This document shows, one piece after another, positions 34,898 to 36,802 of a DNA stretch of 64,000 nt. Each line of letters starts with the position of its first letter. The stretch's first letter is position 1. Origin of the DNA: Paenibacillus curdlanolyticus YK9 (lineage in GTDB: Bacteria; Bacillota; Bacilli; Paenibacillales; Paenibacillaceae). The stretch is from positions 1 to 64,000 of the forward strand of contig NZ_AEDD01000001.1 of the NCBI RefSeq assembly GCF_000179615.1, written 5' to 3'. The translations under genes and the position numbers were made by a program. The notes under the pieces were generated by a model, which made no database searches, was not told the origin of the DNA, and was given only the letters and a program-made list of their open reading frames with translations.

Positions 34898-35007
34898 AGG
34901 TAGACAAATGAGCGCTCAGGTCGCGGCAGGCGCTAATCTGGCATCACTTATCGGCGGTAAATGGCGACATCTTTCTATCGTAGGCGTTCGGAATTTCGCC
35001 GTATACT
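34898..35007 (+). promoter_or_regulatory. Alpha-amylase control region
   Basis: AGGTAGACAAATGA starts at 34898, AATCTGGCATCA at 34935, CTATC at 34975 and TATACT (-10) at 35002. The region upstream of the pullulanase gene repeats all four. The last three keep the same spacing to the -10, and the first is displaced by 11 bp. The -35 is poor, which suggests an activator. Confidence 0.65.
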
Positions 35008-35054
35008 GGGCAAGTATTGCGATTGGTCAAAACGAATCATAAGGAGGAAACAGG

Positions 35055-36611
35055 ATGTTTTCGATTGACTTCATGAAAAGCAGGAAACGTTTGATTTCGT
35101 ACATGGTTGTATTTGCGTTTTTGGCGGGGTTGGTTTTCCAACCGCTTGGGGCGACCAAAGCCAGTGCAGCCGACAATGGGACCATCATGCAATATTTTGA
35201 GTGGTATCTCCCCAATGATGGCGCGCACTGGAACCGTCTCAACAACGATGCGCAAAATTTAAAAAACGTTGGCATTACCGCAGTATGGATACCTCCGGCT
35301 TATAAGGGCGGAAGCAGCGCGGATGTCGGTTATGGCGTGTATGATACGTATGATTTGGGCGAGTTTAATCAAAAAGGGACTGTGCGTACGAAGTATGGGA
35401 CAAAAAGCGAGCTGATTTCCGCCGTCAATAATTTGCATGCCAAAGGGATTGCCGTGTACGGCGATGTGGTGTTGAATCACCGCATGAATGCTGATGCGAC
35501 GGAGCTGGTGGATGCCGTTGAGGTTGATCCGAACAATCGGAACGTGGAGACGACGAGCACTTATCAGATCCAGGCTTGGACCCAATATGATTTTCCCGGC
35601 CGGGGCAATACGTACTCCTCCTTCAAATGGCGCTGGTATCACTTCGATGGGGTAGATTGGGATCAGTCCCGCGGGTTAAACCGGATTTATAAATTGAGAG
35701 GAGACGGCAAGGATTGGGACTGGGAAGTCGATTCGGAATACGGCAATTACGATTATCTCATGGGAGCCGATCTGGACTTTAACCATCCCGATGTCGTGAA
35801 TGAAACCAAAACATGGGGAAAATGGTTCGTAAACACGGTCAATCTGGACGGTGTACGGCTCGATGCCGTCAAACATATCAAATTCGATTTCATGCGGGAC
35901 TGGGTCAACAACGTTCGTTCAACTACCGGCAAGAACCTATTTGCAGTAGGCGAATACTGGCATTACGATGTGAACAAGCTGAATAGCTACATCACGAAAA
36001 CAAACGGAACGATGTCCTTGTTTGACGTGCCTTTGCATTTTCGATTCTATGATGCTTCCAATGGCGGCGGCGGCTACGATATGAGGAACTTATTAAATAA
36101 TACGCTAATGAGCAGCAATCCTATGAAAGCGGTTACATTTGTGGAAAACCACGATACGCAGCCGACGCAGGCGCTGCAATCTACGGTTCAGAGCTGGTTC
36201 AAGCCGCTCGCCTACGCGACGATTCTAACGCGCGAGCAAGGTTATCCTTGCGTGTTTTACGGTGATTATTACGGAACCAGTGACGGCAAGATCAGCTCCT
36301 ATAAGCCGATTATGGATAAACTGCTGAATGCGAGAAAAGTGTATGCGTACGGGACGCAGCGTGACTACTTTGACCATCCCGATATTGTCGGCTGGACCCG
36401 CGAGGGCGACGCTGCTCATGCGGGATCGGGTCTTGCGACCCTGATTACGGACGGACCTGGGGGTTCAAAATGGATGTACGTGGGCACGTCGAAGGCCGGT
36501 CAAGTATGGACGGACAAAACCGGCAATCGCAGCGGAACGGTTACGATCGATGCCAACGGCTGGGGGAACTTCTGGGTTAACGGCGGTTCCGTGTCTGTGT
36601 GGGCCAAGTAA
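35055..36611 (+). CDS. Secreted liquefying alpha-amylase (GH13)
   Basis: The 518-residue enzyme hydrolyses internal alpha-1,4 bonds of starch. A signal peptide covers residues 1-38 ([20 protein letters not shown]). The mature protein begins [17 protein letters not shown], as in Bacillus liquefying amylases. Catalytic residues are D270 ([12 protein letters not shown]), E300 (FAVGEYWHY) and D367 (FVENHDTQP). Length is close to the roughly 510 residues of that group. TAAGGAGGA precedes ATG 35055. Co-regulation with the pullulanase gene downstream is suggested by shared upstream motifs. Confidence 0.95.
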
Positions 36612-36639
36612 TTGATCGTATGCTGGAGCTGACAGGAAC

Positions 36640-36675
36640 AAGCTTGCTTCGAATTAAGCGGAGCAGGCTTTTTTT
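36640..36675 (+). terminator. Intrinsic terminator after alpha-amylase
   Basis: AAGCTTGCTTCG and CGGAGCAGGCTT pair with small bulges, followed by five T residues. Confidence 0.75.
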
Positions 36676-36703
36676 ACGGCAGTAAGATGAATGTACGTTA
36701 ATG

Positions 36704-36802
36704 AGGTAGACAAATGATCAATCCATGACAATCTGGGATCATATGCCCGCCTGAACTCGCATCATATCTCTATCATGGATGGCGGGCAGCGTGTCTTATA
36801 CT
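36704..36802 (+). promoter_or_regulatory. Pullulanase control region
   Basis: AGGTAGACAAATGA starts at 36704, AATCTGGGATCA at 36730, CTATC at 36770 and TATACT at 36797. From the second motif to the -10 is 67 bp, exactly as upstream of the amylase gene. The first motif is 26 bp away from the second here and 37 bp away there. Confidence 0.65.

Follow-up and report, generated by a model that had tools for sequence, protein, structure and literature searches.

With an estimated probability of roughly 85%, the layout shared by the alpha-amylase and pullulanase promoters in the analyzed stretch of the Paenibacillus curdlanolyticus YK9 genome (the window, 64 kb in total) is the operator of an adjoining sensor system, composed of a solute-binding protein (SBP), a histidine kinase, and an AraC-type response regulator, which would activate the two genes from separate promoters. 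On sequence comparison, the true partner of the 14-mer found in both promoters is a 12-bp box ending in CTATC, CATCTTTCTATC in the amylase promoter and CATATCTCTATC in the pullulanase promoter, and not the AATCTGG motif.

Layout of the amylase and pullulanase promoters

The 14-mer AGGTAGACAAATGA was read directly at 34898–34911 and 36704–36717, where the original prediction had placed it, and the other elements described there were recovered as well. AATCTGG(C/G)ATCA occurs on the plus strand as AATCTGGCATCA at 34935–34946 (amylase) and, by direct reading, as AATCTGGGATCA at 36730–36741 (pullulanase), CTATC at 34975–34979 and 36770–36774, and the -10 element TATACT at 35002–35007 and 36797–36802 of the plus strand. 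Offsets from AATCTGG are the same in both promoters, with 40 bp to CTATC and 67 bp to TATACT, whereas the 14-mer is separated from AATCTGG by 37 bp in the amylase promoter and 26 bp in the pullulanase promoter, a difference of 11 bp. The claimed lack of a good -35 also held, as the best candidate at a spacing of 15–19 bp reached 3/6, and a consensus promoter scan returned none on the plus strand in either promoter region.

Two exact copies of the 14-mer occur in the window, and the same two are the only ones in the whole 5.45-Mb genome. Matches with up to two mismatches numbered 18 genome-wide vs. 25 in the reversed control, i.e., control level, and none of the other genomic near-matches had a partner box scoring at least 9/10. 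A wide spread of the 14-mer at genes unrelated to starch, named in the original prediction as evidence against it, was not found in the genome search, which returned only these two genes. Under a gap-tolerant score, local alignment of both upstream regions outscored every one of 1000 dinucleotide shuffle pairs; under a strict score, it outscored 1996 of 2000, and a common word of at least 14 bp appeared in 1 of 2000 shuffles.

Terminator-like hairpins were located by a hairpin scan on the plus strand after the SBP gene (34517–34544), 5' of the amylase promoter (34831–34859), and in the gap between amylase and pullulanase (36640–36670). Since hairpins precede both genes, amylase and pullulanase are likely separate transcripts.

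Paired boxes as the proposed operator

The reverse complement of the 14-mer, TCATTTGTCTACCT, matches the promoter-proximal boxes at 34968–34979 (amylase) and 36763–36774 (pullulanase), both on the plus strand. The consensus across all four boxes is CATNTNTCTAYC, with the upstream copy inverted, so that each operator reads GGTAGACAAATG ... CATNTNTCTAYC. The upstream boxes lie on the minus strand at 34899–34910, within the amylase 14-mer, and at 36705–36716 (pullulanase); the amylase copy equals the consensus from other genomes, and both reach the maximum score of the other-genome matrix (19.4). The distance from the upstream to the downstream box is 69 bp in the amylase and 58 bp in the pullulanase promoter. 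As the 14-mer is an inverted CTATC box, the 11-bp difference is one in how far apart two copies of a single site lie. The common layout without a -35, two sites for one protein, and a spacing shift of about one turn therefore stand as originally predicted, in agreement with the comparative data, but the identity of the second site changes: AATCTGG is absent from the conserved site in relatives, and its place as partner is taken by the CTATC box.

A weak additional box, GTAAGATGAATG, is found on the minus strand at 36682–36693, exactly 23 bp ahead of the main upstream box of pullulanase, with a matrix score of 8.6 (frequency 1.9e-4 per position). When the other-genome matrix was run over both strands of the window, the four boxes of the two promoters were the top four 12-mers and the only ones to reach 14.7, a result that is partly circular because the box was first spotted by eye and tested afterwards, and the sites behind the matrix had been collected with that same consensus. 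The genome pattern scan, the counts at ortholog loci, and the 22-bp gap to the -10 are not circular.

Proposed operator in other Paenibacillaceae genomes

The pattern TAGANANATG N40-70 CATNTNTCTA, derived from the two window promoters alone, was scanned over 394 genomes of the family and matched 48 of them, whereas the reversed control matched about 14. Inspection against the regulator table showed, in 29 matched genomes (28 and that of the window), an ortholog of the regulator encoded in the window no more than about 2 kb away from the match, while 12 further matched genomes were false positives from one coding sequence (start MEILKIEHLS). Eleven matched loci were fetched, and ten of these show a kinase, regulator, SBP, and ABC permeases around the site, often with a GH13 alpha-glucosidase; the eleventh (G183) was unrelated. 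Regulator matches passing E 1e-80 usually numbered one per genome, compared to hundreds of first-look candidates.

An ordered box pair with at least 9/10 positions per box was then sought at 70 loci with relatives of the regulator. It was present at 41 of 55 close-ortholog loci and at 0 of 15 weaker-relative loci, with a shuffle expectation of 0.0, although these counts overstate the evidence as the sites of genus g6 are near-identical and non-independent. The remaining 14 of the 55 close-ortholog loci had no box pair at this threshold. Besides the genus of the window, the operator occurs in five genera (g4, g6, g13, g14, and g17).

The operator of the relatives comprises two upstream boxes 23 bp apart and two opposite downstream boxes 23 bp apart, followed after 22 bp by TATAAT or TATACT. 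The window promoters carry one clear box per end vs. two in relatives, and the direct repeats at 23 bp (about two helical turns), clear in relatives, have as possible counterparts in the window only the weak box at 36682 and degenerate downstream ones. Among relatives, the commonest distance from CTAYC to the -10 is exactly 22 bp (42 cases), followed by 10 bp (17 cases), and 22 bp is also the gap in both window promoters.

In most genomes, the targets are an oligosaccharide ABC transporter and a GH13 alpha-glucosidase. In three others (G018, G314, and G054), the operator precedes an enzyme assigned to GH66, to which dextranases and cycloisomaltooligosaccharide glucanotransferases belong. The common target theme is alpha-glucans, often alpha-1,6-linked.

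Two further arrangements were observed. Many g6 genomes (L239, L283, L285, and L286, at about 3600–3616 of the oriented locus) have a third inverted box about 80 bp past the promoter boxes and near the start of the transporter SBP, which could serve in additional looping or in repression. In G001, of the same genus as the window, a locus with a distant regulator relative (L332, about 1656–1780 oriented) shows GGGTAGA repeated 23 bp apart, TCTACC and CTATC, and then TAAGAT. This same architecture with altered half-sites hints that operator and regulator diverge together.

Spacings from the upstream to the downstream box were 57–59 bp at most loci (second upstream box), 58 bp for pullulanase, and 69 bp for amylase, with three genomes at about 26–29 bp. 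In a Rayleigh test, these values grouped by helical phase (R 0.80, nine classes, p ~0.003), which is suggestive only, as the classes were hand-chosen and are related by descent. At distances of 69 and 58 bp, both boxes keep the same helix face and could be bridged by regulator dimers. A more tentative reading, to which we give somewhat less than even odds, is that of a head-to-head operator of two facing 23-bp tandem pairs, bridged by dimers, whose gap evolves by approximately whole turns only and whose sensor, in this lineage, moved as a whole from an oligosaccharide importer to secreted starch enzymes.

Sensor genes and proposed mechanism

The genes upstream of the amylase, all on the plus strand, have the features of a three-component sugar sensor: an adjacent kinase, a regulator with receiver and AraC-type helix-turn-helix (HTH) domains, and a dedicated SBP without permeases. 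The sensor histidine kinase (29731–31446, 571 aa; Pfam His_kinase PF06580 and HATPase_c) is 57% identical to kinases adjoining the same operator in other genomes. The response regulator (31443–32873, 476 aa; receiver and AraC-type HTH by Pfam), the proposed DNA-binding protein, is 49–54% identical to orthologs at operator-bearing loci. The SBP (32880–34508; SBP_bac_1, lipobox-like LLLSVIGYVCAGC) is 51–52% identical to the SBP on the kinase/regulator side of relatives and only 32% to the transport SBP, and no permease gene lies between it and the amylase. A close copy of the cognate transporter was not found in this genome, the best permease reaching 49% and being accompanied by a different kinase and regulator of its own. 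The targets, likewise on the plus strand, are a secreted GH13 alpha-amylase (35055–36611, 518 aa; NCBIfam NF006972 above cut-off) and an S-layer-anchored type I pullulanase (36844–42141; NCBIfam TIGR02104, SLH), for which a start at 36886, after GGAGGAAGG, is more likely.

No known RNA family was detected within 29400–37000. The stretch 34600–34791 holds a dispersed element, about 230 bp long, for which no Rfam match was obtained and which contains four imperfect TTGCA-N5-TGCAA palindromes 51, 74, and 51 bp apart; this quartet (spacings of about 52, 73, and 52 bp) occurs at many places in the genome, with 349 near-matches of the palindrome vs. 62 in the control. Elsewhere in the window, a 2232-aa open reading frame (50014–56712) combines a subtilase domain with RHS repeats.

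The presence of the operator beside orthologs of kinase, regulator, and SBP in other genomes points to the sensor of the window as the system controlling the enzymes; no regulator was named in the original prediction. Boxes, spacing, and conservation next to orthologous regulators were read from the sequence, and the mechanism proposed from them is as follows. The SBP would be the likely sugar receptor of the kinase, and the inducer, we infer, an alpha-glucan oligosaccharide. The phosphorylated regulator would bind the two opposite 12-bp boxes, of which GGTAGACAAATG lies upstream and CATNTNTCTAYC directly adjoins the place of the absent -35, and would recruit RNA polymerase to TATACT, 22 bp downstream of CATNTNTCTAYC. 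Amylase and pullulanase would each have their own copy of this operator promoter.

Binding of a genuine operator by a different regulator, such as the AraC-type protein at 25484–26344 or an unlinked one, is unlikely. The former is encoded 9 kb upstream, and the genome holds more than 100 first-look candidates of the regulator type; elsewhere, however, the operator adjoins orthologs of the regulator at 31443–32873 and is found beside none of the 15 weaker relatives.

Promoter origin and other starch loci

AATCTGG is common to both promoters and is not found at that place in relatives, so that it was rejected as the partner site. Its 11/12 match between the two promoters is nevertheless too good for chance (P ~2e-4 over the region with the register fixed). 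AATCTGG(C/G)ATCA may be the site of a second factor, a relic left by duplication of the promoter, or an altered form of the missing distal box, at whose expected start it ends.

Local duplication of one ancestral promoter, with the similarity as an unselected leftover, is a very unlikely explanation of the layout as a whole. The two genes are adjacent, and identity at non-motif positions between AATCTGG and the -10 (16/40) is slightly above chance, but past the -10 it amounts to only 9/47, and the boxes, unlike decayed duplicate DNA, match an operator conserved alongside the orthologous regulator in other genera. Duplication may still be the origin of the second promoter, without replacing the regulatory reading.

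Other starch genes of the genome were rejected as members of the regulon, since none of the 15 GH13 and flanking loci that were fetched held a box pair. An apparent weak 14-mer match ahead of a second S-layer pullulanase (L206) was dropped, as that gene has a LacI-like palindrome and a promoter of the standard type. For related amylases in other genomes, of which the upstream regions of about 110 were covered, the best 14-mer match was 11/14, which the reversed complement equaled.

At other starch loci, palindromes of the form GCAAACGNTTGC occur (L202 at 11065, L205 at 8474, L206 at 10523, L207 at 16430, and L212 at 5016), two of them confirmed upstream of a starch-degrading gene, which suggests a separate LacI-type starch regulon at other GH13 loci. 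Cre-like sites are also present in the window: a perfect one at 29665–29678 overlaps the TTGACA of the kinase-regulator promoter, and one with a single mismatch lies in the pullulanase leader (36845–36858, plus strand), the latter a consensus match only, of a kind often expected by chance. Catabolite repression may be layered on amylase/pullulanase control or on the sensor itself. Ordinary LacI-type control (MalR/CcpA) as the source of the shared layout is nonetheless highly improbable, since neither 34860–35054 nor 36640–36802 contains a GCAAACGNTTGC or cre match within two mismatches, and a palindrome would leave the common boxes unexplained. Chance resemblance, raised by the fact that two promoters alone had been compared by eye, has a negligible probability and was already refuted by the shuffle tests and by the reappearance of this operator in other genera.

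Comparison with known systems

Assigning the operator to the adjoining system turns a resemblance between two promoters into a defined operator with a named regulator, together with a list of genomes. It suggests that an outside-sensing two-component system, and not only the usual LacI-type repressors, controls the starch exoenzymes of this lineage, and the site spacings across genomes form a natural experiment on helical phasing. A literature search, which fell short of most subscription journals, returned no description of this operator or system in Paenibacillaceae.

Among the closest parallels is CuaDSR of Ruminiclostridium cellulolyticum, in which an SBP serves a kinase and a YesN/AraC-type regulator that induces carbohydrate genes (PMC10384115). 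Both systems have a dedicated SBP gene, separate from the transport SBP, by a class-I histidine kinase and a YesN/AraC-type regulator. CuaDSR differs in responding to cellobiose, in controlling a transporter operon, and in its SBP gene coming first, whereas the window system is linked to secreted starch enzymes; the likeness drawn here is one of genes.

In Caldicellulosiruptor bescii, two-component regulators of the AraC type, AviRS and BxgRS among them, are predicted to have tandem sites separated by wide spacers (PMC8579813). As in the operator of the relatives, their tandem-repeat sites with large spacers lie upstream of the promoter, where they were read as activator sites, and a CUT1 transporter is adjacent. 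The amylase/pullulanase and maltodextrin genes of C. bescii belong to a MalR regulon of the LacI type, whose site is palindromic (PMC8579813), whereas the amylase and pullulanase of the window carry the two-component operator instead. LacI-type MalR/CcpA systems act on the same gene class, and palindromes of this kind are present at further starch loci of the genome, but the palindromic operator is absent from the amylase and pullulanase promoters.
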